Source of the DNA: a virus
Length of the DNA: 23,308 nucleotides
Virus record (IMG/VR): IMGVR_UViG_3300042882_000986
Span: 1 to 23,308 of that record
Reading direction: 5' to 3' (one strand)
Positions 336 through 19,949 of the stretch are shown one piece after another. The notes under the pieces were generated by a model. The model saw only the letters and a list, made by a program, of their open reading frames with translations, did not search any database and had not been told where the DNA came from. Position 1 is the stretch's first letter, and each line of letters opens with the position of its first letter. Made by a program: the position numbers and the translations under genes.

Positions 336-411
336 GCTTGAAATTTCCTTTATAAAGAATGCTGGGTGAACACCCAACAGTATATTATTTAGTGGGCTTG
401 ATTGATGGCCA
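336..411 (-). promoter_or_regulatory. Porin leader with stem-loop and possible promoter
   Basis: On the minus strand a weak sigma70-like pair, TTGGCC-17-AATAAT, lies between the tmRNA terminator and the porin. A near-perfect inverted repeat at 361-378 (GTTGGGTG / CACCCAGC) would fold into a stem-loop in the 5' untranslated region. The Shine-Dalgarno AAAGGA follows it, about 10 nt before the ATG. No T-run follows the hairpin, so it is more likely a leader structure than a terminator. The promoter call is tentative. Confidence 0.35.
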
Positions 412-413
412 AC

Positions 414-440
414 AAAAAAGCCTGGTTTTCCCAGGCTTTT
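414..440 (-). terminator. Intrinsic terminator of the tmRNA gene
   Basis: A G+C-rich stem GCCTGG/CCAGGC (420-425 with 431-436) is extended by AAAA/TTTT and has a 5-nt loop. On the minus strand it is followed by a run of six T. It directly follows the coding piece of the tmRNA and separates it from the porin. The A-run on the other side would let it act in both directions. Confidence 0.9.
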
Positions 441-480
441 CTGAACTAGTTTGGGTAACAAGGCATAGTTGCCCCGGAGA

Positions 481-3573: not shown

Positions 3574-3602
3574 AGTATAGCATGATCTAGTATCAAAGTC
3601 AA
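3574..3602 (-). promoter_or_regulatory. Sigma70-type promoter of the RNase H gene, abutting the ATG
   Basis: TTGACT (3597-3602), 17 bp and TATACT (3574-3579). Only six bases (CATAGT) separate the -10 box from the ATG at 3567, so transcription should begin at or next to the start codon. The -35 box overlaps the stop codon of the upstream SGNH gene. Confidence 0.8.
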
Positions 3603-5341: not shown

Positions 5342-6580
5342 TTATAGTCTGGTATTACCGTAGTGTACAACAGATATACCCGGCATGTCAACAGGTAATT
5401 TGCGCCACGGATCAACTATGATACTACCAGGTTGAATTTGGCAGTATGGTTGTGTGTCAGGTGTGTTGCCGGTATACTCGTAAGTGATTTTACGATTGTG
5501 TGCCCATAAAAACACTGCTGGTTGATCAAAATCATTGACCACATCGGTTGTATCATCAGCCAAGGGATCCACATAATAACAACGATGACCGGCTTCGGCT
5601 ACATAGAATCCGATCAAGGTGCTGTAACTACCTATGCAGTATTCAACGTCGGGCTTGTAGGCCTTGCCGTGGATCACAATGGGTAACTTGTTTTTCTTGG
5701 CTTGCTCGACCAAGAACAAGGCCAAGTTCTTTGCTTGGATTTCGCGAGCATGCATGACTGTGTCAAACAGGTCGTAACCAATGTTGTATTCTTCAGCCAA
5801 CCAACGTAGTGCAATATTATCACGGGGGTGACAAGCACCGGCATCACCCATGCCGGCAGTCATATATTTAGGACCCATGATGCGCATGGTTGATCGTGCC
5901 AGAGCATTTGTGACCACATCGACATTGATGTGACCAATCCGCATGGCAAAGTCTTGAATCATGTTGACAAGCCCAACCTTGGCGCTAATAAATGTGTTAT
6001 AGAAAATCTTGATGGCTTCGCACTCATCCCATGTGCCAACTTCGTAGCGTGGATTATTCTGCATGATTGTTTCATACAAGTCTCGCAGTTCACCAGCAAC
6101 TCCGGTTAGATTGCCATCTTCGGTACCTAACATGATCATTTCTGGATTGACCATGTCCCATTTCACTGAGCCCATGGCGATCAAGTAAGGATTGTAAACA
6201 AACTGATGTCGAGGATCGAGCAAAGGCACAAACTTTTTGCGAGTTGTTCCTGGCAACACAGTGCTGATTAATACTACTTTTTTAGGTGCCGTAGCAAATT
6301 GATTAATCTTATTGATGGCATCAATCACAGCATCGTGTCCAAAATCTCTGGGAGTCATGTGGCTTGATGGAACACTGCCATCGTAGCCCTCGGCATGCGG
6401 AGTGGGCACAGCAATAAAGATCCACTCGCTTTCTGCGACTAATTCTTTGATATCACATACTTTTACACTATTGCTGGTTCGTGGGTAAATGTCGTAACCG
6501 CGTACCTCGTGTTTTTCTGCAAAAACTTCGGCACAGTCTAGGCCTAATTTTCCAATTCCTACAAATCCAATTTTTGCCAT
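5342..6580 (-). CDS. UDP-glucose/GDP-mannose dehydrogenase family protein, 412 aa
   Basis: Family enzymes oxidise a nucleotide-sugar C6 alcohol to the uronic acid in two NAD+-dependent steps. The N-terminal Rossmann motif is GFVGIGKLG (5-13). IAVPTPHAEG (57-65) and STVLPGTTRKK fit the NAD domain. ECEAIKIFYNTFISAK (187-201) carries the Lys/Asn pair of the active site, and GMGDAGACHPRDN supplies the catalytic Cys at about residue 250. GKAYKPDVEYCIGS in the C-terminal domain fits the usual GxxYKxxxxDxR(E)S region with changes. The length is normal. An AAAGGA Shine-Dalgarno precedes the ATG. The exact sugar (UDP-Glc, UDP-ManNAc or GDP-Man) cannot be told from sequence alone. It would feed acidic sugars into surface glycans. 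Confidence 0.9.
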   Translation of the reverse strand: MAKIGFVGIGKLGLDCAEVFAEKHEVRGYDIYPRTSNSVKVCDIKELVAESEWIFIAVPTPHAEGYDGSVPSSHMTPRDFGHDAVIDAINKINQFATAPKKVVLISTVLPGTTRKKFVPLLDPRHQFVYNPYLIAMGSVKWDMVNPEMIMLGTEDGNLTGVAGELRDLYETIMQNNPRYEVGTWDECEAIKIFYNTFISAKVGLVNMIQDFAMRIGHINVDVVTNALARSTMRIMGPKYMTAGMGDAGACHPRDNIALRWLAEEYNIGYDLFDTVMHAREIQAKNLALFLVEQAKKNKLPIVIHGKAYKPDVEYCIGSYSTLIGFYVAEAGHRCYYVDPLADDTTDVVNDFDQPAVFLWAHNRKITYEYTGNTPDTQPYCQIQPGSIIVDPWRKLPVDMPGISVVHYGNTRL

Positions 6581-6630
6581 GTTTTCCTTTAATCAGTATG
6601 TCACTAATTTATCTGGAGAATCGGCAGAGA

Positions 6631-7386
6631 CTAAGATTTTTTGAACACCGGAATTGGTTGCATTTTGTGTAAGCTACGAGCACGCAGAGCTTGATACTTT
6701 TGCAAGCGTTCTAGTTCCAGACCATTTTTGACTAGTTTACTACCTTCGTCTTGGGCCATGGCCAACTCAAGTTCAGCATAGGTCAGTCCACCCAATTGGT
6801 CTTGATCAGTGCGTCCATCATCCCATAGTCCATCTGTGGGCGCCGCATTGATGATATCTTGCAGGATACCTAACTCACGACCCAAATCCCAAACTTCGGT
6901 TTTTAGCAGATCACCAATGGGACTTATATCTACGCCACCGTCGCCGTACTTGGTATAAAATCCCACACCAAAGTCTTCCACTCGGTTACCAGTGCCCACC
7001 ACAATACCTTGAACGCTTTGAGCAATTTGATACAAGGTAACCATGCGCAGTCGACTACGACTGTTGGCCATGCCCAACAAATTAGGATAGGTGTTAAGCC
7101 GCTGTTCAAACTCATCAAAGGTTGAAGTCAAATCAATGATCTCATGCCGCACATTATCAAAGTTTTGCCCTAACCAGAGCCCTTGACGCATGCTGAGATC
7201 GTGTAGATCTGGGCGTTGACGGATAGGCATGGTCACTGCTACTGTGTTCAATCCAGTTCGGGCGCACAGTGCGCTGACCACAGCACTGTCAATACCGCCA
7301 CTAATGCCCACGACCAGTGACTGTATGCCAGCATTGTTGGCATAGTTCTTGATCCATTCTGTGATTTGATTTGCAAGTTGTTTCAT
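6631..7386 (-). CDS. nadE: Ammonia-dependent NAD synthetase, 251 aa
   Basis: It amidates nicotinate adenine dinucleotide to NAD+ using ATP. SGGIDS (29-34) is the ATP-pyrophosphatase P-loop. GTGNRVEDFGVGFYTKYGDGGVDISPIGDLLKTEVWDLG is the family signature for NaAD and ATP binding (given here as key residues within about 130-170). No glutaminase domain is present, so it uses free ammonia, like the short bacterial form. SGGIDS could suggest QueC, but the GNRVED...YGDGGVDI block and the lack of a C-terminal zinc cysteine set rule that out. AAGGAA lies ahead of the ATG, overlapping the previous stop. A phage copy would restore NAD+, for instance against NAD-depleting defence; this role is inferred. 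Confidence 0.95.
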   Translation of the reverse strand: MKQLANQITEWIKNYANNAGIQSLVVGISGGIDSAVVSALCARTGLNTVAVTMPIRQRPDLHDLSMRQGLWLGQNFDNVRHEIIDLTSTFDEFEQRLNTYPNLLGMANSRSRLRMVTLYQIAQSVQGIVVGTGNRVEDFGVGFYTKYGDGGVDISPIGDLLKTEVWDLGRELGILQDIINAAPTDGLWDDGRTDQDQLGGLTYAELELAMAQDEGSKLVKNGLELERLQKYQALRARSLHKMQPIPVFKKS

Positions 7387-7390
7387 AATT

Positions 7391-7624
7391 TTATTCCTTT
7401 AGTTGCCACATTAAATGTTCCTGGCGATCATGCCATTTGTATTCAATCACGGGTGTTCCTGGGCCGGTCCAGGTAGCAATACCACGATAGGCCATGGTTC
7501 CGGGCCATAGTCTACGTCCGGTGATCTCACAGGTCTGGGGCCATACCACCCTGCATAGTTTCCATTCAGCTCGAATGTAAAAACTGCCATTGGGGCGATC
7601 GATGCGTTCTGGAATTGGACTCAT
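7391..7624 (-). CDS. Small conserved-type hypothetical protein, 77 aa
   Basis: The start MSPIPERIDRPNG at 7624 overlaps the queE stop by ATGA; a longer frame from 7645 is less likely. Sequence features are RAEWKLCRVVWPQTCEITGRR and TWTGPGTPVIEYKWHD; it is rich in Trp and has two cysteines about ten residues apart. There is no signal peptide or membrane helix. It lies between queE and nadE in one operon. I do not recognise the family; the compact Trp-rich pattern suggests a small beta protein. Confidence 0.7.
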   Translation of the reverse strand: MSPIPERIDRPNGSFYIRAEWKLCRVVWPQTCEITGRRLWPGTMAYRGIATWTGPGTPVIEYKWHDRQEHLMWQLKE

Positions 7625-8496
7625 TTGCCCCAGCCGTTGCCCCACAAGTCCACGTGCAATCTAGGACTGTAGTTCCAGCCCTGGGCACAGCAAATGTCTG
7701 CTATGCGCTTTTTATTTTTATCATAGGGTTCGACTACACCGCCCTGTGGCATCAAGTAGATCACACCAGTAAATCCTGCACGGCGATAGGCATCTGTGGC
7801 ACGTATGGCTTCCGCAATGTGCTCATCGGTTTCAACCACAAACTTCAAGTAAGTATGTCCGATGTCAGCATAGCTCATCACAACGTCTGGACAGATGGCG
7901 TCTTCCCAAGACTCGCCACTTGCACTAAGTTTGGCACTGACACTAAAAGTCAGTGCTCCTGGTCCTCGTTTGCCCAGGCGTGGATTTAGTGTCCAGTCCA
8001 ACAAGAAGTGACGAAAATCATCATGTAGTTCTTGAGTACCATTGGTCTCAAATGTGATATTCTTCAAGTCACGCATGCGATCATGGCCGAGCAGTTCTGC
8101 ATAGGCACGTTGCCAGCCCAGCAAAGGTTCTCCACCTGTGATCACAAGATGCACGTCGTTGCCATTGTTCTGTTGCCACATGTTGTTGGGGGTCAAGGCC
8201 AACATGCGTTCTACCAACTCTTCTGTGGTCTGCGTGGGGCTCAAGTGTTTGAATGCTGGATGCCAACTGGCATACGAATCACAACCGGTTTCCACCAAGG
8301 GCAGTTCTTCAAACCGGTTGTATAAATGCACCACTTCGGCCACATCGTCGGCACCTGTTGACTTTTCACCGGGCTTGCAACCAAACCCGCTACAAGTAAA
8401 GTTACAACCATAGGTTCGCAAGAACACACTGGGTACACCCACAAAGCGTCCTTCGCCCTGTAGACTATAAAATATTTCGCTGACTTTTATTTTCAT
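7621..8496 (-). CDS. queE: QueE-like radical SAM 7-carboxy-7-deazaguanine synthase, 291 aa
   Basis: QueE converts 6-carboxy-tetrahydropterin to 7-carboxy-7-deazaguanine, the step after QueD. The N-terminus SEIFYSLQGEGRFVGVPSVFLR is the QueE signature. The cluster cysteines are C31, C35 and C40 (CX3CX4C), not the usual CX3CX2C. ITGGEPLLGW is the SAM-binding GGE motif, and FETNGTQ follows. The insert with TGCDSYASWHPAFKHLS is typical of the longer phage-type enzymes as I recall them; E. coli QueE has 223 residues. The C-terminal LMPQGG also fits the family. The start overlaps the upstream small gene by ATGA. The product may go to DNA modification or to preQ0. Confidence 0.9.
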   Translation of the reverse strand: MKIKVSEIFYSLQGEGRFVGVPSVFLRTYGCNFTCSGFGCKPGEKSTGADDVAEVVHLYNRFEELPLVETGCDSYASWHPAFKHLSPTQTTEELVERMLALTPNNMWQQNNGNDVHLVITGGEPLLGWQRAYAELLGHDRMRDLKNITFETNGTQELHDDFRHFLLDWTLNPRLGKRGPGALTFSVSAKLSASGESWEDAICPDVVMSYADIGHTYLKFVVETDEHIAEAIRATDAYRRAGFTGVIYLMPQGGVVEPYDKNKKRIADICCAQGWNYSPRLHVDLWGNGWGK

Positions 8497-8687
8497 TCTT
8501 TAACCTTTACCGGAACACCCTTGTATGAATAATGTATAACTTTATCTTTTACCGTTCTATCAAAATTGCTGTAATTGGCGTTAAGCTCTTCATCTGACAA
8601 CTCAAAATAATCAATGGGTTTTTTGGTGTCACGAATAGCGTCTGCCATTTGTTCTAACAACGTAGGTTTTCTATAATGTATCTTCAT
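8493..8687 (-). CDS. Small hypothetical protein, 64 aa
   Basis: The start MKIHYRKPTLLEQMADAIR at 8687 overlaps the phosphoribosyltransferase stop by ATGA, and is preferred over a longer frame from 8723 that runs inside that gene. The protein is charged, with a helical N-terminal half and a VIHYSYKGVPVKVKE C-terminal strand pair. There is no signal peptide or membrane helix. It sits between a phosphoribosyltransferase and queE and is probably co-translated with both. The family is not recognised. Confidence 0.72.
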   Translation of the reverse strand: MKIHYRKPTLLEQMADAIRDTKKPIDYFELSDEELNANYSNFDRTVKDKVIHYSYKGVPVKVKE

Positions 8688-9193
8688 TTCCACCAATCTT
8701 CCCAAGGAAAAACAATCCAACAATCTTCTTCAGCTTTATTTAGATCAACTGCACTGTAGCTCACAGGAATTTCATTCTTGCTTGACTCATTGTCGACCAG
8801 CACAGCCACACGCACATTGTGACCCCAGACTTCATTCCAGCGTGGATTGTCAGGAAAACAGCCGCTAGGCCAATCCTCATGTATATAATTTAATGTGGCG
8901 CCAGTGTCATTGATGTCATCTACGATCAAGATATTTTTAGGCTGTTCCATGTCATGCCCATATGCATCCTCGGCCATCCACAAGTTGCTTTCGCATTCGT
9001 TGCCGTCACGCAAACTAACTTTGAGGGTTTCCATCCTGCAACCAAGATATTGGCTGATCAAGTTGGCTGGAACCAGGCCGCCACGTGTGAGTCCGACCAC
9101 ATAGTCTGGCTGCCAGGCGTCTAAATGGATCTGTCGTAGAATTTCTTGTGTCTGGCTTTCTACGTCTTGCCAAGTATGATAGATTTTTTTCAT
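8684..9193 (-). CDS. Type I phosphoribosyltransferase, 169 aa (xanthine/hypoxanthine-guanine type likely)
   Basis: ILIVDDINDTGAT (88-100) is the PRPP-binding loop with the paired acidic residues of type I phosphoribosyltransferases. YVVGLTRGGLVPANLISQYLG (31-51) is the N-terminal strand and PPi loop region. The length is close to that of E. coli Gpt. It would transfer a purine or related base to PRPP. Its place in front of queE raises the possibility of a role with deazaguanine bases, but this is inference. The -10 box of its promoter ends only 5 nt before the ATG, so translation may start at the very 5' end of the mRNA. Confidence 0.88.
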   Translation of the reverse strand: MKKIYHTWQDVESQTQEILRQIHLDAWQPDYVVGLTRGGLVPANLISQYLGCRMETLKVSLRDGNECESNLWMAEDAYGHDMEQPKNILIVDDINDTGATLNYIHEDWPSGCFPDNPRWNEVWGHNVRVAVLVDNESSKNEIPVSYSAVDLNKAEEDCWIVFPWEDWWK

Positions 9194-9228: not shown

Positions 9229-10167
9229 TTAACGTGTGAGCCATTCAGGATTTGCCTGATACCATTCTACCGTTTCGGTCAACCGTTGTTCATGGGTTTT
9301 GGGTGCTTGCCACCCTAGTTCATATAATTTTTCTGGATCAACACTGAAACACAAGTCATGTCCAGGGCGATCAACTGGAATCAACTGATATCGTAATTCA
9401 CGATCCAGAATCTGGGCAATGTGTTGCGCAAATTCAAGATTATTGATAAACTTGTTGCCTGCACTATTCCATTTTTCACAACGGGTCAATTGTGTTTCCA
9501 GTATAAATCTAGTATGGCTGGCCACATCGCCGGCATAGAACCAACGACGTCCACCAATCAATTCGCTGGGGCCTACATGTATATCCAAAGTTTCGTTGTT
9601 GAGTAATTTGCGTATGATAATCACCGGCAAGCGATTGCTTTGACAACGTGGACCAAAAGTGTTGTTGATGTGTATGATGCTGGCAGGAACATTAAACGAA
9701 TTGGCATAGGCCAGGCACAGTTCTTCACCCGCGGCTTTGCCGGCCGCATAAGGGCTATTGCTGTTGTAGGCATCGTTGGGCTGACTATCCTGTCCAATAG
9801 ATATAGGGCCAAACACTTCGGCACTGCTATAATATACAAATCTTTCAACTCCAGTATGACGGGCATGTTCCAACAGGTTCAATGTGCCCAGCACGTTGTC
9901 CATGATAGATGCTGTGGGATCACTCAAGCTGTCGGCTGAACTGGGGTTGGCACCAGCATGTAATATAATGTCTGTTGCTGGCAAGTGTCTACAAGAATTT
10001 TTGATGTCGTGCTCAATCACAGTGACACGATCCCGCAAGTGATTGATCCGTTCCATATTGACCGAACCTGGTCTAACCACGCAGATAACACGATGGTCTT
10101 CTGCAAATTCTTCTACTAGGTAATGGCCAATAAATCCATTGGCTCCGGTAATCAATGCTGTTTTCAT
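9229..10167 (-). CDS. NAD-dependent epimerase/dehydratase (extended SDR), 312 aa
   Basis: The start MKTALITGANGFIG at 10167 overlaps the previous stop by ATGA; a longer frame from 10188 lies inside that gene. TGANGFIG is the NAD(P) motif, YYSSAEVFG carries the catalytic Ser/Thr region, and SPYAAGK gives the YxxxK pair. NTFGPR and the C-terminal DPEKLYELGWQAPKTHEQRLTETVEWY are typical of nucleotide-sugar 4-epimerases and 4-reductases. As the last gene of the sugar operon it may epimerise or reduce the product made by the dehydratase and ThDP enzymes. The exact reaction is not decided by sequence. Confidence 0.88.
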   Translation of the reverse strand: MKTALITGANGFIGHYLVEEFAEDHRVICVVRPGSVNMERINHLRDRVTVIEHDIKNSCRHLPATDIILHAGANPSSADSLSDPTASIMDNVLGTLNLLEHARHTGVERFVYYSSAEVFGPISIGQDSQPNDAYNSNSPYAAGKAAGEELCLAYANSFNVPASIIHINNTFGPRCQSNRLPVIIIRKLLNNETLDIHVGPSELIGGRRWFYAGDVASHTRFILETQLTRCEKWNSAGNKFINNLEFAQHIAQILDRELRYQLIPVDRPGHDLCFSVDPEKLYELGWQAPKTHEQRLTETVEWYQANPEWLTR

Positions 10168-10838
10168 GGTTGGTATTTGTAAATGCAATCGGTCATGTTG
10201 GTCATGATTTGGCGGTAGCCGAGATCACTCAACAATTTCTCAAATTGTTCTGAACTCACGCCATATCTTTTGGCCCAGGGTTCACACCATTCTAACATCA
10301 GCAAAGGATGATATCGTTCAATGGTACGTCGGGCTCCCAACAAGGCAAAATATTCGTAACCTTCAATGTCTAACTGTATGAGATCACAGGCCGGCAGATC
10401 CATGTCATCAATGATCACTGTGTGTATGTTACCTGTACCGCTTACGTGAATAGCGCCCGAATCATGGCCTTTGCTTATGTTTACAAATTTTCTTTCATTG
10501 CCCACACAGGCCTGTGTTTTTATCACATTGTTACCGCAGTTCAAAGTCAAACACAAAAAATTTGTTGGATCGGGTTCAAATGTATACACAGTGTCAAATC
10601 GTTGACTGAACTGCCTCACATACTGTCCACAGTTGCCACCGGCTTGTATCATGACCGCGGTGCCAGTGACATGCGTCATTAATTCATCAAAAAATTCTGG
10701 GGTTATGCGATACTGATGCATGTAATTCCACATGCCCTGATCGTATTGCGGCCACCACAGATTTTTTAATTCTGGGTACTGTGAACTGTCTCTTAGTTCA
10801 ACAAAATTTTCTAAGCCTGGAATTTTTTGGTTTGTCAT
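10164..10838 (-). CDS. FkbM-family methyltransferase, 224 aa
   Basis: VMIQAGGNCGQYVRQFS is the SAM-binding glycine loop, YTFEPDPTNF has the acidic residue binding the SAM ribose, and LIQLDIEGYEYFALLGA is the FkbM-type signature. Family members O-methylate sugars or small molecules. In this operon it probably methylates a sugar of the surface glycan. The C-terminus LSDLGYRQI is the usual end of the fold. It begins 6 nt after the ThDP C-subunit gene and is followed by the SDR with an ATGA overlap. Confidence 0.88.
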   Translation of the reverse strand: MTNQKIPGLENFVELRDSSQYPELKNLWWPQYDQGMWNYMHQYRITPEFFDELMTHVTGTAVMIQAGGNCGQYVRQFSQRFDTVYTFEPDPTNFLCLTLNCGNNVIKTQACVGNERKFVNISKGHDSGAIHVSGTGNIHTVIIDDMDLPACDLIQLDIEGYEYFALLGARRTIERYHPLLMLEWCEPWAKRYGVSSEQFEKLLSDLGYRQIMTNMTDCIYKYQP

Positions 10839-10844
10839 GGTGTT

Positions 10845-11585
10845 TTAAATTTTAACAATCATTTCGCGAGCAAGTTCTTCGTCACTAAGGAATGGTGTCA
10901 TATCGTGCAGGCCTGCTTGACGGCCATTCTTTAATGCCTGTGCCGGAAGGATTTCTTGATCGGTGTGGCAACGGCAATCAATGATGCAAGGACCTGCTCT
11001 GGCAAGGATTTCTGGAAACCGGTCTAGGTCAGCCGCTGATCGCATGTCAGTATAACTCATGCCAAAAGCAACCGCGATGTTCTTAAAGTCAGGAAACCAC
11101 AGGCCAGTTTCAGAGCTGGTACCATGTACACGACCATTGAAATATTTTGTTTGTGTATTTTTGATGCTCAAGTAACCTGCATTGTTGAGTATGACAAATT
11201 TGATATTGAGTCCATGTTGCTTGACTGTGGCAAGTTCTTGGATATTGCTCATAAAACTACCATCACCTATGATGCTGATGATGGGCTGATTGCTGGCCAT
11301 GCTGGCACCAATGGCAGCAGGAAGTGCCCAGCCCATGTCTGCCTGTGCTGGACTAAAAATAAAACGTTGACCTGGCTTGGCATTCAGCGCAACAGGACCT
11401 GCATAACTGATACTACCAGCATCACCCATGAGAATATCTTCGGGAAGACTGTGCTTGTTGATCGCATCAAGTACGGCATAGATATTCAACGAGTGATCAT
11501 TTTTGTTGGCACGGTATTCATCTTGCATCACAGGCCAAATGGCTTTCCAGTGATTGCATTTGTCTATCCAGTCTTGTCTGTTCAT
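10845..11585 (-). CDS. ThDP-dependent enzyme, C-terminal (ThDP-binding) subunit, 246 aa
   Basis: GDGSFMSNIQELATVKQHG ending in LNN is the GDG-(26)-NN diphosphate/Mg2+ motif of ThDP enzymes. GDAGSISYAGPVAL and MGWALPAAIGAS match the acetolactate-synthase-like fold, and about 35 N-terminal residues form a linker (WIDKCNHWKAIWP). It has only the third of the three usual domains; the other two are on the gene upstream, overlapping by ATGA. The two ORFs together have 581 residues, the normal length of a single-chain ALS-like enzyme of LPS clusters. Near an RfbH-like dehydratase, a YerE-like role (adding a two-carbon unit from pyruvate to a 4-keto sugar) is the best guess. Confidence 0.85.
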   Translation of the reverse strand: MNRQDWIDKCNHWKAIWPVMQDEYRANKNDHSLNIYAVLDAINKHSLPEDILMGDAGSISYAGPVALNAKPGQRFIFSPAQADMGWALPAAIGASMASNQPIISIIGDGSFMSNIQELATVKQHGLNIKFVILNNAGYLSIKNTQTKYFNGRVHGTSSETGLWFPDFKNIAVAFGMSYTDMRSAADLDRFPEILARAGPCIIDCRCHTDQEILPAQALKNGRQAGLHDMTPFLSDEELAREMIVKI

Positions 11586-12589
11586 ACCATGCTCCTGAAA
11601 AATTGTTGCAAATCAACACTGAGTTTTTCATCAATCTTAACGATATCTTTTTTCAATTCGTCAACATCTAAGTCTACAATAATTTTATAACTTGCAGGAC
11701 TAAACTGTGCAGGATCGTATCCAATCACACTTGATCCAAGACTGCTACCCAATACAAGCAACAAGTCTGCGTTCTGCATGGCAAAGTTACCTGCACGGCT
11801 GCCTTTGATACCCACAGCACCAATACTCAATCTATGATCGTCGGCTGTGTAATCTCTTGCTCCGTAGGTACTGACATAAGGAATCTGATAATGTTCGATA
11901 AACTTGACAAAATCTTCAACAGTGTTGCTTTGACGTATACCGTAGCCTGCCAACACAACCGGGCGCTTGGCATCGGCAATGGCTTGTTTGACTCTAGCAA
12001 AGTCGGTCATTGAATCTGACAGACCAGCGGCGGTGTACTGGGCATAGTTCTCGGGCATCGGTGCTGTTTGAATGTCTCCAGGGATATCAATCCATACAGG
12101 ACCAGGACGGCCGGTTGTGGCCAGGTGTATTGCATATTGTATGTTATATGCTACGTCTTGTACATTGTCAACGAAACAACTTAATTTGGTCATGGTCTTG
12201 TAAGTGTCAACAACATGGTGCTCTTGGATGCCGTACTTACGAATGTTGATGTTGTTTTTTTTGTTAATGTGTCCGCTACAGGTCGCTAATCTGACATTGC
12301 CTGACAGGAACAACACAGGCACGCTGTCTTGCCAGGCATTTAACACTGATGTGGCACAGTTAGTTCCGGCACAGCCTGTTGTAGGGTTAACCACAGCAAG
12401 TTTGCCAGTAAATTTGCTTTCGGCTGTGGCTGCATGTCCTGCACCTTGCTCGTGATGATAGCAGATATAGGGCATGCCTTGTTTGATAAATCCATCATTG
12501 AGTCCGCTGGCGCCGCCGCCCATCAATCCGTGTACTCGTTTGACACCGATAGATTTTAAGTAATCAGCGATCCAATCACATACTCTCAT
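11582..12589 (-). CDS. ThDP-dependent enzyme, N-terminal (pyrimidine plus central domain) subunit, 335 aa
   Basis: Residues 1-170 form the pyrimidine-binding domain: GLMGGGASGLNDGF, then YHHEQGAGHAATAESKFTGK with the catalytic Glu, and NPTTGCAGTNCATSVLNAW. The central domain follows (RPVVLAGYGIRQSN, LLLVLGSSLGSSV, IIVDLDVDELKKD). The ORF stops just where the linker to the ThDP-binding domain would start. The next ORF supplies that domain and overlaps by ATGA, so this is a clean subunit split and not decay. Family relatives are acetolactate synthase and the yersiniose enzyme YerE. The true substrate is not proven. Confidence 0.85.
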   Translation of the reverse strand: MRVCDWIADYLKSIGVKRVHGLMGGGASGLNDGFIKQGMPYICYHHEQGAGHAATAESKFTGKLAVVNPTTGCAGTNCATSVLNAWQDSVPVLFLSGNVRLATCSGHINKKNNINIRKYGIQEHHVVDTYKTMTKLSCFVDNVQDVAYNIQYAIHLATTGRPGPVWIDIPGDIQTAPMPENYAQYTAAGLSDSMTDFARVKQAIADAKRPVVLAGYGIRQSNTVEDFVKFIEHYQIPYVSTYGARDYTADDHRLSIGAVGIKGSRAGNFAMQNADLLLVLGSSLGSSVIGYDPAQFSPASYKIIVDLDVDELKKDIVKIDEKLSVDLQQFFRSMV

Positions 12590-13752
12590 TTGGTTCCCAA
12601 TGCTTGGTAAATTCTATTCAGTCCTTGTTGAATGTTTTCACGACTGGTCGCATAACACAATCTAATATAGCCTTCTCCGTGTTGTCCAAAACAATGTCCA
12701 GGCAAGGTCACTACTCCGGCAGACATTAACTTTTCAACAACTTGGTCACTTGATAAACCTGTGCCTGTGATGTTGGGAAACACATAAAATGCACCTCCTG
12801 GTTTAAGGCATGTGACGCCCTTGACACGATTGAGTCCGTCGACCAGCAGGTCTCTGCGTGCTTGATATTCTGCCATCATGTTGGTCACTGCTTCTTGGCT
12901 GCCGCGAATGGCTTCAATGCCGGCACGCTGAACAAACGTGCTCACACAACTTGATGTGGTTTGTAACAGTGCCGCCATGCGTTCAATGACCTTGGCCGGT
13001 CCGATCAGTGTGCCCAATCTCCAACCAGTCATGGCAAATGCTTTGCTGAAGCCGTTGCTGAGAATCACATGTTCCTTGCAATGATCGTAGATGCTGGGAC
13101 TGGCAAAACCAATTGGCTCGTAGTTCATGCGTGCATAAATCTCGTCACTGTAAACATATATGTCATGCTTCTTGGCAATTTCATAAATGCGTTTGACTTC
13201 GTCGGTGGTCAGCACACTGCCAGTGGGATTTTGCGGACTGTTGATAATGATCAAGCGTGTCTTGTCTGTGATGGCCGCTTCGATGTCGTCGGGACTCATA
13301 CGGAATTCGTTTTCTTCTTTGAGTGGCACACGCACAGGCACAGCACCACACATTTTGATGTTGCTGTAGTATGTGCTGAAGCCAGGATCTGGCACAATGA
13401 CTTCAAAGCCAGGATCCACCAAACAAAACACAGCATAGTAGATGGCAATGTTGGCACCCGGGGTAATCAACACTTGATCTAAGTCAGGACGGAATCCTCT
13501 GCTGCGTTCTGTGGCAAACTGCACAGCTTCCCTAAACTCTTGCAACCCAAAACTACTACCGTAGTGTGTTTCTCCATTGGACAAAGATTGCACAGCGGCC
13601 CATGTAACATTTTTGGGTGTGTCAAAGTCTGGCTCACCTATCTCCATGTGTACGAGATGTTGGCCCCGGGCCTCCAGGGCCTTGGCCATGTCCAGGTACT
13701 TGAACATTGGCTGACCATCAATCTTGGCGGTTACTTGGCTAAGACTTTTCAT
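12586..13752 (-). CDS. Class I/II PLP aminotransferase (aspartate/alanine type), 388 aa
   Basis: SNGFSKAFAMTGWRLG carries the PLP lysine (K237) and the phosphate-binding Arg. NSPQNPTG has the Asn contacting PLP, and YSDEIYARM the Asp that pairs with the pyridine nitrogen. GYIRLCYATS near the C-terminus holds the substrate carboxylate Arg. The length is standard. It acts on amino acids, unlike the sugar aminotransferases of DegT type. Between the dehydratase and the split ThDP enzyme, it could supply pyruvate from alanine as the two-carbon donor; this is inference. It overlaps both neighbours by ATGA. Confidence 0.9.
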   Translation of the reverse strand: MKSLSQVTAKIDGQPMFKYLDMAKALEARGQHLVHMEIGEPDFDTPKNVTWAAVQSLSNGETHYGSSFGLQEFREAVQFATERSRGFRPDLDQVLITPGANIAIYYAVFCLVDPGFEVIVPDPGFSTYYSNIKMCGAVPVRVPLKEENEFRMSPDDIEAAITDKTRLIIINSPQNPTGSVLTTDEVKRIYEIAKKHDIYVYSDEIYARMNYEPIGFASPSIYDHCKEHVILSNGFSKAFAMTGWRLGTLIGPAKVIERMAALLQTTSSCVSTFVQRAGIEAIRGSQEAVTNMMAEYQARRDLLVDGLNRVKGVTCLKPGGAFYVFPNITGTGLSSDQVVEKLMSAGVVTLPGHCFGQHGEGYIRLCYATSRENIQQGLNRIYQALGTK

Positions 13753-15068
13753 AGATACAAGCTCATAAATCCATCAACCTTCTCTCCAATGTACTCAATC
13801 TGTTCAGGAGTGATCACTGGACTGCATCCATGGAAGTAGGTGTTCTTCATGGTGAATGTGGCCACAGGGTAGTTGTCACGTGCCTCTGCAGGATCCATCA
13901 GGTGACTATATGCAGGTTGCAACATGATGTTGCCAGCAAAGTATGGGCGTGTCTGTATCAAGTTTTCTTCAAGATAGTCAACGATGTCCATGCGTGAGAA
14001 CGGTGCACCTTCACGTATGGTCAATGGGAAAGCAAACCAACTTACATCGGCTTTGTCTCGGGCACGGGGCAAGTGGAAGAACTGTTCATACTTTTCATAG
14101 ATAGCAAACAGTAGATTGTAGTTGCGTTGACGTAAAGCATGTATCTCTGGCAATTTCTTGATCTGTTCTAAGCCCATGGCTGCTTGTAGTTCAATGGGCT
14201 TCAAGTTATAGCCAATTTCATCATACACATATTTGTGATCAAAAATCTGATCTGGCATTTCGGGAATCCACTCATTGAATCGCTTGCCACAGGTGCCACA
14301 TTTCAACTTGTTGGCTTCGGGTCCTACGCAATAACAGCCACGGCCCCATTCACGCAGGCTACGCACGATGATTTCTTGCTGTGGATCGTTCATGGCCACA
14401 AAGCCACCCTCGCCCATGGTCATGTGATGTGCTGGATAAAAACTGCATGACGCCATTAGACCAAAACTTCCCAAGGGCTTGCCATCATAGGTGGTACCAA
14501 GTCCATCACAACAATCTTCCAACAAGATTAAATTATACTTGTTGACCAAGTCCATGACCCGGTCCATGTTGGGCGGGTTACCCAACACATGGGCAAAAGT
14601 TATAATCTTGATGTCTGGATCTGCCGCAAGCAACCGCTCTGCGTGATCTAGGTCAATGTTTAGGGTATCAATTTCAATGTCGCAGAACACTGGCGTAAAT
14701 TGATTTTGTATGGTTGGATTCAGTGTGGTTGGGAATCCTGCAATAGGCATCAATACCTTGGTGCCTGGTGGAAAGTTGTGTCCACGCTTGCTCTTCATTG
14801 CGGTCATCATCAAGAGATTTGCACTGCTACCACTGTTGGTCAATACTCCGCGAGTCTTGCCAAATTCTCGGGGGAACTTTTGTTCAAAGCGTAGGCTCTT
14901 GTTGCCCATGACCAGCCAGCCGTTGAGCAAGGCTTCTGCGGCTGCCACATACTCGTCAGACGAAAAATGTGGACCTGCATAGTTCACAAAGTCCTTGCCA
15001 GCTACCCAGGTCTTGGCAGATTGTTTTTGTTCGATGTATTGCTTGATCAATGTTAAAATTTCATTCAT
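13749..15068 (-). CDS. rfbH: RfbH/AscC-like PLP-dependent 4-keto-6-deoxyhexose 3-dehydratase, 439 aa
   Basis: It has the DegT/DnrJ/EryC1 fold, but the PLP lysine is replaced: SFYPAHHMTMGEGG has His214-His215 at that place, the mark of E1-type 3-dehydratases such as RfbH, AscC and ColD. GRGCYC (C245, C247) and KCGTCGKRF (C257, C260) correspond to the [2Fe-2S] cysteines of CDP-linked E1; the spacing is CX1CX9CX2C, wider than in Salmonella-type enzymes (CxCx3Cx3C). NSGSSANLL and the C-terminal region SWFAFPLT and RPYFAGN also match RfbH. It would remove the C3 hydroxyl, leading to 3,6-dideoxy sugars. No E3-type flavin/iron-sulfur reductase is seen in the window. It overlaps the previous gene by 8 nt. 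Confidence 0.92.
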   Translation of the reverse strand: MNEILTLIKQYIEQKQSAKTWVAGKDFVNYAGPHFSSDEYVAAAEALLNGWLVMGNKSLRFEQKFPREFGKTRGVLTNSGSSANLLMMTAMKSKRGHNFPPGTKVLMPIAGFPTTLNPTIQNQFTPVFCDIEIDTLNIDLDHAERLLAADPDIKIITFAHVLGNPPNMDRVMDLVNKYNLILLEDCCDGLGTTYDGKPLGSFGLMASCSFYPAHHMTMGEGGFVAMNDPQQEIIVRSLREWGRGCYCVGPEANKLKCGTCGKRFNEWIPEMPDQIFDHKYVYDEIGYNLKPIELQAAMGLEQIKKLPEIHALRQRNYNLLFAIYEKYEQFFHLPRARDKADVSWFAFPLTIREGAPFSRMDIVDYLEENLIQTRPYFAGNIMLQPAYSHLMDPAEARDNYPVATFTMKNTYFHGCSPVITPEQIEYIGEKVDGFMSLYL

Positions 15069-15795
15069 AGTGAACTCCGAGTTCTTGGCACAGCTCTTTC
15101 ATCATGCTGATCACTCGGCTACTGCCTCGGCTGGCACAAAAATGCAAAATGTTTGCATCACCGATCGGCACTCCAGAATTCCAAAGTCTAGTAGATTCTA
15201 TTTCAGCAGGATGGTCGCTTCTTAAGTTATGGCACATGTAATTCATTTCTGGATGTAGTCGATCTGTTTCTGGAATATCTTGCGACCAAAACATTGCGTT
15301 GTGTCTTAGTTGGTCAAATCCCCATAGGCGATCTGGATGTGTTTCTCTTTGCTCCCAGTATTTTTCACCTAGGTCCCATGTTTCTTTTGACATGGTGTGT
15401 GGATAATATTGCACGTCGTCATTGAAATGATGTCGAAATTCTCTGTGGTTGCGTGGCTCTGTATAGTTGAACAATCTGTATTCCCGGTAGCGGTCGCCAA
15501 ACAAACTGGTAGGTCGAATCATGAAAGTATCAGCTCCGGCCCAGAAAATGTTGCAGGGTTCTTTGTGCCATAATGCTTTGATCTCTTTCCAGTTGTCTAC
15601 TGTATAGGTATCACTGTCCTTGGTAGGTTCGGTCCATAATACATCCTCAAATGGTTCTTGACAAAATTTACGGAATGATGCCAATCTCATTTGGTACATT
15701 TCCCCATAGGCCTTGTACAGGTCTTGGTTTTTTTCCATGTGCCACCCATTCTGGATTGGCCGCACAGCTGATACTAGATAATTTTTAACTGTCAT
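15061..15795 (-). CDS. Putative glycosyltransferase, 244 aa
   Basis: CNIFWAGADTFMIRPTSLFG (from about residue 80) resembles the acidic nucleotide-sugar site in capsule/galactosyl-type GT-A enzymes (for example DADTLF), though here only one Asp is in the motif. RLWGFDQLRHNAMFWSQ and YMCHNLRSDHPA are further conserved-looking blocks. There is no signal peptide or membrane helix. Its place within the sugar operon, overlapping the methyltransferase by TAATG and the dehydratase gene by 8 nt, supports a glycan role. The family call is tentative; it could be a hypothetical with another function. Confidence 0.5.
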   Translation of the reverse strand: MTVKNYLVSAVRPIQNGWHMEKNQDLYKAYGEMYQMRLASFRKFCQEPFEDVLWTEPTKDSDTYTVDNWKEIKALWHKEPCNIFWAGADTFMIRPTSLFGDRYREYRLFNYTEPRNHREFRHHFNDDVQYYPHTMSKETWDLGEKYWEQRETHPDRLWGFDQLRHNAMFWSQDIPETDRLHPEMNYMCHNLRSDHPAEIESTRLWNSGVPIGDANILHFCASRGSSRVISMMKELCQELGVHYE

Positions 15796-16469
15796 TATAG
15801 TCTACCCAAAATAGCACCACTGTTTTGTCTGTATCCTTGGTTGTTGAGTATCTCGTATCCTTGTAAAAGTAAGTAAGGAATTACTGCGGAACACTTGCCA
15901 ATGAACACTCCTTCATTGGGATGATACCAAGTGTCATCACATACTATGATACTTTTTTTAGTCATCAAAGGCATCAATCGCATGGCCTGCAACAAATGGG
16001 TTTTTTGACTGTTGATGTTGGTCATCTCAGTGCCCATGTAATCTCTGTAGTGTTGTTTTTGCGCAGGAACGAAAGATTCTTCTTGGCCGCCCACCCAATA
16101 GTCCCAATCAAAGTTGTCAAGATATACCAACGAAAATTTCTTGTCAGGATTGTCACGTGCAAATTGTTCTAGAAAATTTTCACCAAAGGCATGTACTAGT
16201 TCTATGTGATCTGGCAAAGGGCCTGGCGCCAAACGAAATTGACCATCGTTGCCCAGGACCATTTTTCCTTGGGCTGACAGCACTGTTCTAGCTCGGGTGA
16301 TTTGATTTTCATCGGCATCAACCCCATAAAACTTGATGCCTTTTGTTTTTGCTATGTCAGCAAAGAACTTGGTACTGCCTTCGCCACGGTCAACACCGAT
16401 TTCAACCCAGGCACCGGATGGATCGACTGCATCTATAAATCTTTCTACTTCTCTATAATATGTTCCCAT
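15795..16469 (-). CDS. Class I SAM-dependent methyltransferase, 224 aa
   Basis: AWVEIGVDRGEGSTKFFADI is motif I with its glycine-rich SAM loop, and KFYGVDADENQITRA has the acidic residue for the ribose. FSLVYLDNFDWDYW is the post-motif II strand, and SIIVCDDTWYHPNEGV resembles CmcI/cephalosporin-hydroxylase-type and TylF-type methyltransferases, in which the Asp pair binds metal. It probably O-methylates a sugar. It starts 3 nt after the RmlB-like gene and ends with a one-base overlap (TAATG) with the next. Confidence 0.78.
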   Translation of the reverse strand: MGTYYREVERFIDAVDPSGAWVEIGVDRGEGSTKFFADIAKTKGIKFYGVDADENQITRARTVLSAQGKMVLGNDGQFRLAPGPLPDHIELVHAFGENFLEQFARDNPDKKFSLVYLDNFDWDYWVGGQEESFVPAQKQHYRDYMGTEMTNINSQKTHLLQAMRLMPLMTKKSIIVCDDTWYHPNEGVFIGKCSAVIPYLLLQGYEILNNQGYRQNSGAILGRL

Positions 16470-16472
16470 GGA

Positions 16473-17423
16473 TCACCAAATAAAATTTAACAAGTAATAC
16501 TCTATAACTCTTTGTAGTTCTTGATCAAAGTCCGCTGTCGGTTGCCAGCCCAGAGCCTTGAGTTTAGAGTCATTGATTGCATAGCGCACATCTTGGCCTT
16601 GTCGATGGCTGCCAATGATGTAATCTTCCCAACAATCTTCGGCTCCGTTGCCAGGATAGTAGTGCAAAATCTTCTTGATAACTTCTTTGTTGGGCATTTC
16701 TGCATTGCCCGAAATGTTGTAGATTTCATTGACTTTGCCGTGATCAATCACGGTCATGGCTGCACGAGCAGTGTCTTCGACATGCAACCAGGTCCTCCGA
16801 GGCTCACCACGATCATGCAGGTCAATTTTCCTGCCTATTTTGAGATACTTGATTGACTTGGGGATTAATTTTTCAACATATTGACCAATGCCATAGTTGT
16901 TGGTAGGACGCACAATCACATATCGGATGCCATAGGTCCTAGCCCAGGCCAGGATCAACATGTCGGCAGCTGCCTTGGATGCTGAATAAGGATTGCTGGG
17001 TTTGAGTAGATCAGTTTCGGTGTGGGCACCTGAATCAATATCTCCATAGACCTCGTCGGTTGAAAAATGCAACAATGTTGGTTGCTTTTGAACAGGTTGT
17101 TGTCGGATCAATTCTAACAGACGGTGCACTCCGTTGATGTTGCTATGCAGAAATACCTCGGAACTTATGATTGAGTTGTCCACATGGGTTTCAGCTGCTG
17201 TGTTTATGATATAATCGCAATCATACAACCGGTCAAGGTCATTGATATCTTTGTGCTCAAATTTAAATGTATCGTATTTTTGGAACTCATTTAAAAAATC
17301 AAAATTGCTGGCATAGGTACCTTTGTCTACACCGATCACATGCCATCCACGTGCCAGACATTGTCGTGTGACATGTACTCCTATGAATCCCAAACAACCT
17401 GTGACATATACAATTTTTTTCAT
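16473..17423 (-). CDS. dTDP-glucose 4,6-dehydratase-like SDR (RmlB-like), 316 aa
   Basis: VTGCLGFIG (7-15) is the NAD+ motif, NTAAETHVDNS (74-84) matches the RmlB AAESHVDRS block, HFSTDEVYGD has the catalytic Thr-Asp-Glu (122-124), and NPYSASK has Tyr146 and Lys150. RPTNNYG follows as in RmlB. RmlB removes water from dTDP-glucose to give the 4-keto-6-deoxy sugar, the substrate type for the 3-dehydratase downstream. Because CDP-glucose dehydratases usually have STDKVYGN, the sugar carrier would be dTDP by this motif, whereas RfbH normally uses CDP; this mismatch is unresolved. It overlaps the glycosyltransferase gene by ATGA. Confidence 0.88.
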   Translation of the reverse strand: MKKIVYVTGCLGFIGVHVTRQCLARGWHVIGVDKGTYASNFDFLNEFQKYDTFKFEHKDINDLDRLYDCDYIINTAAETHVDNSIISSEVFLHSNINGVHRLLELIRQQPVQKQPTLLHFSTDEVYGDIDSGAHTETDLLKPSNPYSASKAAADMLILAWARTYGIRYVIVRPTNNYGIGQYVEKLIPKSIKYLKIGRKIDLHDRGEPRRTWLHVEDTARAAMTVIDHGKVNEIYNISGNAEMPNKEVIKKILHYYPGNGAEDCWEDYIIGSHRQGQDVRYAINDSKLKALGWQPTADFDQELQRVIEYYLLNFIW

Positions 17424-18241
17424 TTCATTTTTATTTGGAATTGACGCATCTGATTGTTTACATCATTTTCTCTTAGTCGTTGCCATGGATCTTGTTGTTG
17501 AGATTTGACGGCATCCCACCAGGTGGGATTCTGCCCTATGGTTTTCAAATAGTCATTTAATTTGTCACACTCACGCATGCGTTTCCAGGTCTGGTCTGGA
17601 TGATGGAAGTCTCTAGGGTTACTGGGATTGCCCTCCAAGAGTTCGCGTTGTTTGTAAGTGGCGTCGAGATTGTTGCCGGTGAGATCAGCACGATCGTGTG
17701 TGACATGCACGTCAATACGCTGGTAGATGTCTACACAGTAGGCATTTTGACTCAGCCAGGCGTCATTCATGCTGTGCAGGCTCAGATGTCCGATCACATC
17801 CAACCATGCTTTGGGCACTATAGGGAATATGCTATAGGGATGGTCATTGTGAGTATGAACCGCTAACAATTTAAACTGGCCAGTGTGCTTGATTATTTCT
17901 GAGTCCCAGTCTTGCGTTTCCATTATAGCATCGTCGTTCCAAAAAAACATCCAATCTGCTGAACTAGCCCGGGCCAGGGTGTTTACATAATCGTGTAATT
18001 GACTATAGCCCATGGGCTCAAAAGACATGGCGGTATAATCCACACCCATGTCGTCTAGTCTGGGTTGTAGTTGTTGTTGGAAATGTTCGATGCCCACAGT
18101 GTCATCGGTGTCAAGTCCTAGCAGAACCTGTATGCTGTCTAGATCTGCGGCCTTTTCTAGCAAGCCAATCAGGCTACGATCTAGTGCGTCTGTTCTACCA
18201 CGTGTGGGAAGTAATATTGCTATTTGATATTTGTTTGACAT
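17420..18241 (-). CDS. GT-A (family 2-like) glycosyltransferase, 273 aa
   Basis: IAILLPTRGRTDALDRSL is the opening beta-strand and nucleotide-binding loop of family 2 glycosyltransferases. LLGLDTDDTV and WMFFWNDDAIM supply acidic residues, the latter in the place of the metal-binding DxD. There is no transmembrane segment, so it is a cytoplasmic enzyme. The C-terminal 80 residues (WKRMRECDKL to QIKMK) are helical and charged. It is the first gene of the sugar operon. There is no Shine-Dalgarno before ATG 18241 and a promoter-like TATAAATA ends 7 nt upstream, so the mRNA may be leaderless. Confidence 0.78.
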   Translation of the reverse strand: MSNKYQIAILLPTRGRTDALDRSLIGLLEKAADLDSIQVLLGLDTDDTVGIEHFQQQLQPRLDDMGVDYTAMSFEPMGYSQLHDYVNTLARASSADWMFFWNDDAIMETQDWDSEIIKHTGQFKLLAVHTHNDHPYSIFPIVPKAWLDVIGHLSLHSMNDAWLSQNAYCVDIYQRIDVHVTHDRADLTGNNLDATYKQRELLEGNPSNPRDFHHPDQTWKRMRECDKLNDYLKTIGQNPTWWDAVKSQQQDPWQRLRENDVNNQMRQFQIKMK

Positions 18242-18282: not shown

Positions 18283-18732
18283 TTATCCTTCGTAGATGGC
18301 ACTGTTGGCACCGTGCTCAGCACATTCCGCCCTGACGCAATAGCAACGACCATTGGTCTTTTTGCGGATTAATTTGTCTGCAAATCGAAAAGCATGTTCA
18401 GCAAATTTCTCAGCACCAACTCCATCAAACATTCGGATCTCTGCCAGTCCCAATGCTTGTAATTCTTCAAACTTGGCCAAGTGTGGATCTGCACGATCCA
18501 GGGCCAGCTTGTGATCAAAGTGATCTTCCAGCCAGGCTTTTAGTTCTTTGAGTCCACCAAAGTCCACTGCCCAGTTTTTATCATCCAGCTGATCACAACC
18601 AAAAGTGAATGTGAATGCCAGACTGTAACCATGTAACAAGTGACAGTGACTGTGATCAGCATTGGGCTGTCTGAACACAGCACTCAATCCAATGTTGTGT
18701 CCGTAGTGTTTTGTTGAAAGATACTTTGCCAT
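18283..18732 (-). CDS. queD: QueD-family 6-carboxy-tetrahydropterin synthase, 149 aa
   Basis: QueD makes 6-carboxy-5,6,7,8-tetrahydropterin from dihydroneopterin triphosphate, the product of FolE. HSHCHLLHGYSLAF holds the probable catalytic Cys30 and His34; NWAVDFGGLKELKAWLEDHFDHK is the family core with the Asp-His pair, and VRAECAEHGANSAIY is the C-terminal substrate-binding end. Two usual zinc histidines are changed: the first (in FSAAHR) is LSAVFR here and the third (HGH) is HGY. I recall the same variant in phage-type QueD proteins, so His27/His29 may be substitute ligands. AGGAG lies 7 nt before the ATG. It has its own promoter. Confidence 0.88.
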   Translation of the reverse strand: MAKYLSTKHYGHNIGLSAVFRQPNADHSHCHLLHGYSLAFTFTFGCDQLDDKNWAVDFGGLKELKAWLEDHFDHKLALDRADPHLAKFEELQALGLAEIRMFDGVGAEKFAEHAFRFADKLIRKKTNGRCYCVRAECAEHGANSAIYEG

Positions 18733-18815: not shown

Positions 18816-19949
18816 TCATGCTGTTATTAAATTCCATATTTTATCAAAATCTAAATTCCTAGAAGCACAAATGGTTCTTAGATAGTTTTGTAATATATTA
18901 TTGTCTTGTAGTTTTAAACTAAGCAAATGATTAACCGCGTAGTTTTTGACCTTATTTAAATCTTGATTTAGTGTGATAGCATTTAATTTGTTTATTGATT
19001 TTTCTATTGTATCTTTTGGCAAGCTATCGCAACTTAAAAAATTTGGATCGTTCAAATGCCAAATCTCGACTCTGTTGGTTTTATTGTTGAGATACAACAG
19101 TAATTCATCTAGATGCAATGCTGTCAACGCACTTAATCCTATATTATATGTAATTTCTCCACGAGTGCTCATCCATTGAGCCGAGATTTTTTCAAATTCT
19201 TTCCAGGTGCCAGGATAACGAACAAATTCGTTTATATCTTTACTTCCGTCAACACTTAATCTAATGGTATAATGATTAAATTGATCTAATAGAGTAACAA
19301 TATCTTGATCAAAGATTCTACAATTGGTTGTAAAATGTATTTCTAATGTAGGAGAGATAGGCAACAACATTTCTAATATAGTTTTAGTCAATGGATTGAT
19401 TGTAGGTTCGCCGCCAAGTAGAACAATTTTTTGCGGATTCAGTTTTATAATATCCGCCAATACTTTTTCTAATAGTTTGATATCACTGGCCCACCATTGG
19501 CTGTTTAATGCTTGGCTGGAATTGAATTCTTTGGTAAAGTTGATGAATTCTTTACTATCATATAAATTTAAATCTCGCCATTCTTGTGCTATCTTACTGC
19601 TTTGGTAAGGATTACACGTAACACAAGCATTGTTACACAAGTTTCCGATGTTTAGTTGTACAACTATCGGCCGAGATATGTCCTCATTCAATGATCGTTG
19701 TCTAAGACTTTCTTTTCCTAATTTTTCTTCTTGATAACAATTTTTACATCTTAAATCGTATCCTTTTACATTTATATTGTTATCAAATTTTTTCAACCAC
19801 TCACTGTTGTAATACTCTTGAATGCTGATATCTTTGACGTTGGGACTTTCTCCAGTTGATACATGATTCCAACTTTGATAACACGGTACTAGTTGTCCGT
19901 GATTAGATATGTAAAGACCATTTTGTATTAAGTTACATGGATTTTTCAT
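18816..19949 (-). CDS. Twitch/SPASM-type radical SAM protein, 377 aa
   Basis: LNIGNLCNNACVTCNPY carries the CX3CX2C cluster motif (C105, C109, C112), and VLLGGEPTINP is the GGE SAM-binding motif. Cysteines before the core (C5, C23, and CKNC at 68-71) suggest an auxiliary iron-sulfur cluster of the twitch kind, here N-terminal; a further TCNRIF lies mid-protein. Members modify peptides, sugars or nucleotides; the substrate is unknown. The gene is clearly more A+T-rich than its neighbours, which suggests recent transfer. No Shine-Dalgarno is visible. An extended -10 (TGGTATGAT) lies about 20-30 bases upstream within a decayed HIT fragment. Confidence 0.85.
   Translation of the reverse strand: MKNPCNLIQNGLYISNHGQLVPCYQSWNHVSTGESPNVKDISIQEYYNSEWLKKFDNNINVKGYDLRCKNCYQEEKLGKESLRQRSLNEDISRPIVVQLNIGNLCNNACVTCNPYQSSKIAQEWRDLNLYDSKEFINFTKEFNSSQALNSQWWASDIKLLEKVLADIIKLNPQKIVLLGGEPTINPLTKTILEMLLPISPTLEIHFTTNCRIFDQDIVTLLDQFNHYTIRLSVDGSKDINEFVRYPGTWKEFEKISAQWMSTRGEITYNIGLSALTALHLDELLLYLNNKTNRVEIWHLNDPNFLSCDSLPKDTIEKSINKLNAITLNQDLNKVKNYAVNHLLSLKLQDNNILQNYLRTICASRNLDFDKIWNLITA

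Follow-up and report, generated by a model that had tools for sequence, protein, structure and literature searches.

A 23.3-kb linear contig in IMG/VR (record IMGVR_UViG_3300042882_000986, 23,308 nucleotides; hereafter, the window) carries a gene cassette in which an E1-type 3-dehydratase is followed by an amino acid aminotransferase (AT) and by an apparently YerE-like, thiamine diphosphate (ThDP)-dependent enzyme divided between two open reading frames (ORFs). We consider it very likely that this cassette is a phage-encoded, exchangeable C-branching module that acts on a nucleoside diphosphate (NDP)-4-keto-3,6-dideoxysugar and yields a C-branched 3,6-dideoxyhexose. Gene content, domains, conserved residues, phylogenetic placement and the exchange of genes in the slot after E1 are direct observations, from which we infer every reaction, donor, nucleotide and glycan target proposed below. 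C-branched 3,6-dideoxysugars are known components of bacterial lipopolysaccharide (LPS) and antibiotics; no report of a phage YerE-like enzyme was found in the open-access literature searched.

The sequence in the window is part of a large freshwater phage related to a T4-type virus. That virus is represented by a 337-kb contig (L003), which has nearly the same gene order, with 90 to 96% identity in most cassette genes, and which encodes both a terminase and a gp23 capsid protein of the T4 type. All four ORFs of E1, AT, ThDP chain 1 and ThDP chain 2 were confirmed on the minus strand, and each of the three junctions between them is a 4-bp ATGA overlap. From the gene for a 244-aa protein through that for a short-chain dehydrogenase/reductase (SDR), adjoining ORFs overlap by 4 to 8 bp or stand 6 bp apart, an arrangement that looks like one operon; the overlap of the FkbM-family gene with the SDR gene is 26 bp as listed and 4 bp if the SDR starts at ATG.

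The E1 3-dehydratase and the split ThDP enzyme

The original prediction described the first of these genes as a DegT-fold enzyme with His in place of Lys and with iron-sulfur cysteines, and both features hold. The protein scores 430.5 bits against the NCBIfam RfbH equivalog NF011936 (cut-off, 423), and among solved structures it is closest to those of E1, 3bcx and 3bb8 (E ≤ 4e-96). The Lys that would bind pyridoxal 5'-phosphate (PLP) is replaced by His (SFYPAHHMTMGEGG), and the cysteines of the EDCC, CYC and CGTC motifs align with those of the two structures. The His and the [2Fe-2S] Cys motifs are kept in 120/120 viral homologues.

The ThDP enzyme had been described as two ATGA-linked ORFs whose total length equals that of the usual single chain, and this was borne out: chains of 335 and 246 aa, joined by a 4-bp overlap, match TPP_enzyme_N plus TPP_enzyme_M and TPP_enzyme_C, respectively, and add up to the length of a normal single chain. 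The split falls in a length-variable interdomain linker ahead of the first PP-domain helix; 70 viral gene pairs (32 nonredundant), from many metagenomes, are divided at this linker. Of 31 nonredundant relatives, 27 show the exact ATGA overlap, and a Shine-Dalgarno-like motif lies upstream of the overlap in 17. Because the split recurs at one linker in loci from so many metagenomes, we regard it as real; an assembly frameshift or chance was considered as its origin and rejected, since the overlapping start and stop recur across many assemblies. A YerE-like lyase would be expected to be a single polypeptide, and these 70 viral pairs instead have two ORFs. The original prediction had tied its identification to intact active-site residues, and by sequence comparison none was lost, with the catalytic Glu (HHEQ/HNEQ) and the GDG...NN motif kept in all 70 pairs. 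In an AlphaFold2 model of chain 2 (pLDDT, 81), the seven best PDB matches are all chains of JanthE (TMq, 0.73 to 0.82).

We found the split form only in viral sequences. It was absent from the best 80 bacterial loci retrieved and from 369 genomes of one bacterial class, in which the strongest matches (37 to 42% identical) were all long single frames; neither set is exhaustive. The arrangement of E1 followed by the two ThDP chains was not found in the cultured phages searched, where the matches to acetolactate synthase look like bacterial contamination. The split enzyme would give the decarboxylase superfamily a new layout, in two chains, and would also offer a source of ketone-accepting biocatalysts.

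Placement of the ThDP enzyme in the YerE-like group

The best PDB match of the joined chains is JanthE (8rph; 276 bits), followed by 5ahk, which we take to be the structure of PpYerE (194 bits), and acetohydroxyacid synthase (AHAS; 193 bits). A tree, proposed as a check in the original prediction, placed the pair with JanthE and PpYerE and apart from acetolactate synthase. The split form makes up one clade (SH-aLRT, 95; 32 sequences, all viral) adjoining two viral single-chain enzymes (SH-aLRT, 100), and the whole viral group falls with JanthE (SH-aLRT, 99) and PpYerE (SH-aLRT, 97). Escherichia coli IlvB, IlvI, Gcl, PoxB and Oxc all lie outside the YerE-like group. The tree comes from a quick search and has some long reference branches, so that the exact place of PpYerE is unsure. 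The tree and one active-site column led us to reject acetolactate synthase, and likewise pyruvate oxidase, oxalyl-CoA decarboxylase and glyoxylate carboligase, as identities of the pair. This column, that of JanthE P293, holds Arg in AHAS, Gcl, PoxB and 5ahk, Ser or Pro in the split enzymes and Thr in their single-chain sisters; the Arg presumably binds the acceptor in AHAS.

JanthE is a ketone-accepting YerE-like lyase for which mutants of the substrate pocket have been studied (PMC12188165). At the corresponding positions, the split enzymes mostly have Ile for V121, keep Y297 and have Ala or Ser for K567. Ile is tolerated at V121 of JanthE, and a change of K567 to the residue type seen here raised tertiary-alcohol formation fivefold (PMC12188165). 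Together, these comparisons support assignment of the pair to the YerE-like, ketone-accepting lyases and not to acetolactate synthase.

The 80 best bacterial relatives of the enzyme are 33 to 41% identical to it and were matched as one chain. An RfbH-type E1 lies within 10 kb in about 40 of them, across bacterial phyla, and in eight a homologue of the AT (48 to 61% identical) is directly upstream of the single-chain ThDP gene. One such locus, from Methylophilaceae LSUCC0401 (L139), reads rfbF-rfbG-rfbH-AT-ThDP-SDR. This company of E1 in bacteria supports the interpretation given in the original prediction.

These data bear on the possibility that the pair is a split acetolactate synthase, or some other enzyme of central metabolism, that serves to boost the host's metabolism of amino acids or pyruvate and whose position beside E1 is only incidental. 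Automatic models do label both halves acetolactate synthase, and AHAS, a member of the same superfamily, is only about 80 bits behind JanthE. However, the pair lies outside IlvB/IlvI in the tree, the AHAS Arg is absent from the split enzymes, no gene for a regulatory subunit stands beside the pair, and the link to E1 recurs both across bacterial phyla and in phages whose ThDP gene belongs to another superfamily. We therefore consider a metabolic role of this kind very improbable.

An exchangeable ThDP slot after E1

An observation that goes beyond the original prediction is that the slot after E1 is filled by enzymes of three ThDP superfamilies. Among 80 viral loci selected solely for the similarity of their E1, with overlapping origins, it holds a split YerE-like enzyme in 22 (14 with AT and 8 without), a single-chain YerE-like enzyme in 13, a transketolase-like pair in 19 and an E1-alpha/beta-like dehydrogenase pair in 16; 8 loci have no ThDP type within reach, and 2 are truncated. 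A ThDP enzyme thus lies no more than 6 ORFs after E1 in 70 of 78 untruncated loci. Dereplication at 98% E1 identity left 54 of 76 usable loci, and all slot classes persisted. On the E1 tree the occupant changes at least 28 times, and E1 proteins that are 97 to 98% identical adjoin different ThDP superfamilies. To class the pairs, BLAST was used to match them to representatives whose domains had been verified in Pfam and NCBIfam. Of these domains, Transket_pyr (55.9 bits) and E1_dh (55.7 bits) were both clear; the transketolase PP half was weaker (71 bits to a transketolase model and 24.9 bits to DXP_synthase_N), and in the dehydrogenase pair the Pyr half, at 25.3 bits, fell just short of its cut-off of 27. 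The three superfamilies (YerE-like, alpha-ketoacid dehydrogenase and transketolase) are those known or proposed to branch ketosugars (PMC12247030).

Transketolase-like and E1-alpha/beta-like pairs follow E1 in L061, L063, L082, L085 and other loci. In L028 and L030, the split YerE-like enzyme comes after a dehydrogenase pair, and in L097, L099, L111 and L123 a NeuB-family gene lies between E1 and a single-chain YerE-like enzyme. In L104, a 141-kb viral contig, directly after an E1 that is 90% identical to that of the window, the slot holds a JanthE homologue of 70% identity, which precedes genes for acetaldehyde dehydrogenase, 4-hydroxy-2-oxovalerate aldolase, a reductase, a GT17-like glycosyltransferase and RmlB. 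No match to gp23 or terminase was found in L104, and its viral origin therefore rests on IMG/VR.

Whether LPS-type genes of T4-like phages are functional or stuffer DNA is an open question (PMC3037559), and Sullivan et al. 2010 (PMC3037559) raised the cargo or stuffer possibility for cyanophage LPS gene clusters. The cassette could likewise be captured host LPS or capsule machinery that has no role in infection. This reading fits poorly with the catalytic motifs kept in all 70 split pairs and all 120 E1 genes, with a slot refilled by functionally parallel enzymes without decay, and with the tight, overlapping gene order; we regard it as highly doubtful. Three unrelated ThDP superfamilies with shared chemistry replace one another in a single slot, which would be difficult to account for if the product were of no importance, and this suggests that these viruses really use branched sugars, on a surface glycan or on their own particles. 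We lean, with moderate confidence, toward the broader view that widespread large T4-type freshwater phages combine a fixed E1 with exchangeable ThDP carboligases and donor enzymes, each phage making a different branched deoxysugar and so diversifying the glycans of the virion or the infected host.

Proposed donor supply and pathway

The gene between E1 and the ThDP pair encodes an amino acid aminotransferase, as originally predicted, and its best PDB matches are the aspartate/aromatic aminotransferases 1gd9 and 1dju. The PLP-Lys motif is present in 37 of 41 homologues and the C-terminal Arg motif, which we take to bind the alpha-carboxylate, in 36 of 41. The enzyme probably supplies a 2-oxo acid donor. 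It is accessory, since about half of the split loci lack it (in the E1-selected set, 8 of 22). Acetaldehyde dehydrogenase and 4-hydroxy-2-oxovalerate aldolase, both above their equivalog cut-offs, occur with the JanthE homologue in L104 (positions 13122-15075) and with a split YerE-like enzyme in L051 (positions 6519-8422). JanthE accepts 4-hydroxy-2-oxovalerate as a donor (PMC12188165).

The AT might instead act on a sugar already branched by the ThDP enzyme and aminate the ketone of the branch. Kibdelomycin offers a known case of a transaminated branch (PMC12247030), and the AT gene overlaps the ThDP genes within one operon-like array. Against this order of steps, the AT is of the class I amino acid type with its C-terminal Arg motif, unlike DegT-type sugar aminotransferases, and other loci carry the donor-making 4-hydroxy-2-oxovalerate enzymes in its place. 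We judge late amination unlikely and favor donor supply.

In the pathway that we propose, an RmlB-type enzyme would convert host NDP-glucose to NDP-4-keto-6-deoxyglucose, and E1 would strip the C3 hydroxyl, drawing electrons from a ferredoxin- or flavodoxin-type reductase of the host. Once assembled, the two ThDP chains would act as a single YerE-like carboligase, decarboxylating a 2-oxo acid and transferring the acyl group to the C4 ketone, leaving a tertiary-alcohol branch. The donor would be made from an amino acid by the AT or, in other phages, through acetaldehyde dehydrogenase and 4-hydroxy-2-oxovalerate aldolase. The SDR may then reduce, and the FkbM-family enzyme O-methylate, the branched product, which a neighboring GT-A-fold transferase could attach to a glycan or a virion protein; candidate destinations of the sugar are LPS, capsule, the virion and DNA. 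In related phages, E1 stays in place and the carboligase slot swaps among the three ThDP superfamilies.

The RmlB-type dehydratase, which has TDE and YxxxK motifs and scores only 70 bits to the CDP-type model TIGR02622, is the probable source of the E1 substrate, and a homologue is present in 66 of the 80 viral E1 loci. The SDR has YxxxK and carries SAE where 4,6-dehydratases have TDE, making it more likely a reductase or epimerase. O-methylation of the sugar by the FkbM-family enzyme is possible. The AlphaFold2 model of the 244-aa protein (pLDDT, 89; pTM, 0.90) has glycogenin as its best Foldseek match (E = 4e-6) and also matches the PBCV-1 capsid glycosyltransferase 2p73 (E = 1.1e-5); on the strength of this predicted fold, the protein is a candidate transferase for the sugar.

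Several observations weigh against a C-branching module. The margin of E1 over the RfbH cut-off is only slight, and 8 of 78 untruncated E1 loci have no ThDP gene close by. The ThDP enzyme is 30% identical to JanthE, and the bacterial sequences in the tree were picked for their resemblance to the query, so that the exclusions the tree permits are limited. The JanthE Y268 and P293 columns, thought to hold FAD, contain Lys and Ser or Pro in the split enzymes, so that FAD use is uncertain and FAD binding may differ. A search of the flanks, suggested in the original prediction, recovered neither a partner E3 reductase (no Fer2 domain) nor a glucose-1-phosphate nucleotidyltransferase (no NTP_transferase) in 12 long related viral contigs, which may be incomplete; both functions would then have to come from the host. 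SpnQ-type dehydratases are known to use host reductases. The predicted route to a branched 3,6-dideoxy sugar is well supported as a class of chemistry, while nothing points to yersiniose itself: a cytidylyltransferase was absent from the same 12 contigs, and the 4,6-dehydratase is RmlB-type, not CDP-glucose type.

Other features of the window

The cassette and the genes around it are listed in Table 1. The truncated porin gene is a hint of a Gram-negative host. The QueD-like, QueE-like, NAD synthetase-like and phosphoribosyltransferase genes that flank the cassette possibly have 7-deazaguanine and NAD functions. The GC dip at the Radical SAM/SPASM gene suggests that it is a likely recent insertion.

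Table 1. Cassette genes and neighboring features of the window, in the order of the minus strand
Feature	Position	Strand	Evidence or remark
814-aa lipoprotein-like protein	20636-23080	-	FG-GAP repeats; kept in related phages at variable identity
Radical SAM/SPASM protein	18816-19949	-	Within GC dip (0.33-0.35)
QueD-like protein	18283-18732	-	
Putative second glycosyltransferase	17420-18241	-	phrog_14945 "glycosyltransferase," 40.7 bits
RmlB-type NDP-glucose 4,6-dehydratase	16473-17423	-	TIGR01181, 305 bits, under equivalog cut-off of 365
Methyltransf_24-like protein, upstream of cassette	15795-16469	-	PF13578, 24.3 bits; weak, under cut-off of 26.3
Glycosyltransferase-like 244-aa protein (GT-A fold)	15061-15795	-	Overlaps E1 start by 8 bp
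E1/RfbH-type PLP (PMP), [2Fe-2S] NDP-4-keto-6-deoxyhexose 3-dehydratase	13749-15068	-	NCBIfam NF011936; PDB 3bcx/3bb8
Fold-type I, class I/II amino acid aminotransferase	12586-13752	-	PF00155, 241 bits
YerE-like ThDP chain 1 (Pyr plus central domain; catalytic Glu47)	11582-12589	-	PF02776 plus PF00205
YerE-like ThDP chain 2 (PP domain; GDG...NN)	10845-11585	-	PF02775
FkbM-family methyltransferase	10164-10838	-	PF05050, 47 bits; TIGR01444, 49.5 bits (cut-off, 37.7)
Extended SDR	9229-10167	-	ATG start; PF01370, 135 bits; TIGR01181, 160 bits, well below cut-off of 365
Phosphoribosyltransferase	8684-9193	-	
QueE-like protein	7621-8496	-	
NAD synthetase-like protein	6631-7386	-	
Two tandem DUF6071 proteins	4300-4947 and 3599-4303	-	
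Truncated Gram-negative porin	3-461	-	PF13609, 52.8 bits; 68% identical homologue in viral locus L105

Comparison with known systems

JanthE of Janthinobacterium sp. HH01 (PDB 8rph), the best match in sequence and structure, shares with the phage enzyme the Pyr-central-PP order, the catalytic Glu and the PP motif. The phage enzyme differs in having a canonical GDG (CDG in JanthE), two chains, and altered FAD-contact residues and K567. YerE of the yersiniose pathway likewise comes after an E1 3-dehydratase and belongs to the same branch of the ThDP superfamily; however, identity is 30%, the bacterial form is a single chain whereas the phage form is split, the Arg of 5ahk at the JanthE P293 column is lost, and neither CDP-glucose genes nor E3 lie beside the phage ThDP enzyme. 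The bacterial L139 cluster has the same E1-AT-ThDP order, but its ThDP enzyme is one ORF, 38% identical, and it includes a cytidylyltransferase and a CDP-glucose dehydratase.

KbDH-alpha/beta and the split transketolases of Streptomyces (PMC12247030) are also two-gene ThDP enzymes with known or proposed roles in ketosugar branching, and related phage loci have members of their superfamilies in the slot after E1. Those superfamilies are distinct from that of the split phage enzyme, a decarboxylase-superfamily chain cut before the PP domain. Finally, three T4-like cyanophages with LPS-type clusters, S-SM2, P-TIM68 and S-H68, also carry genes for nucleotide sugars. An E1 homologue (39%) is present in S-H68, and S-SM2 (L225) and P-TIM68 (L226) carry, among these genes, a transketolase-like gene with about 38% identity to the PP half of the dehydrogenase pair. 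In contrast to the phages described here, no YerE-like enzyme and no neighboring E1-ThDP pair was found in the three cyanophages.

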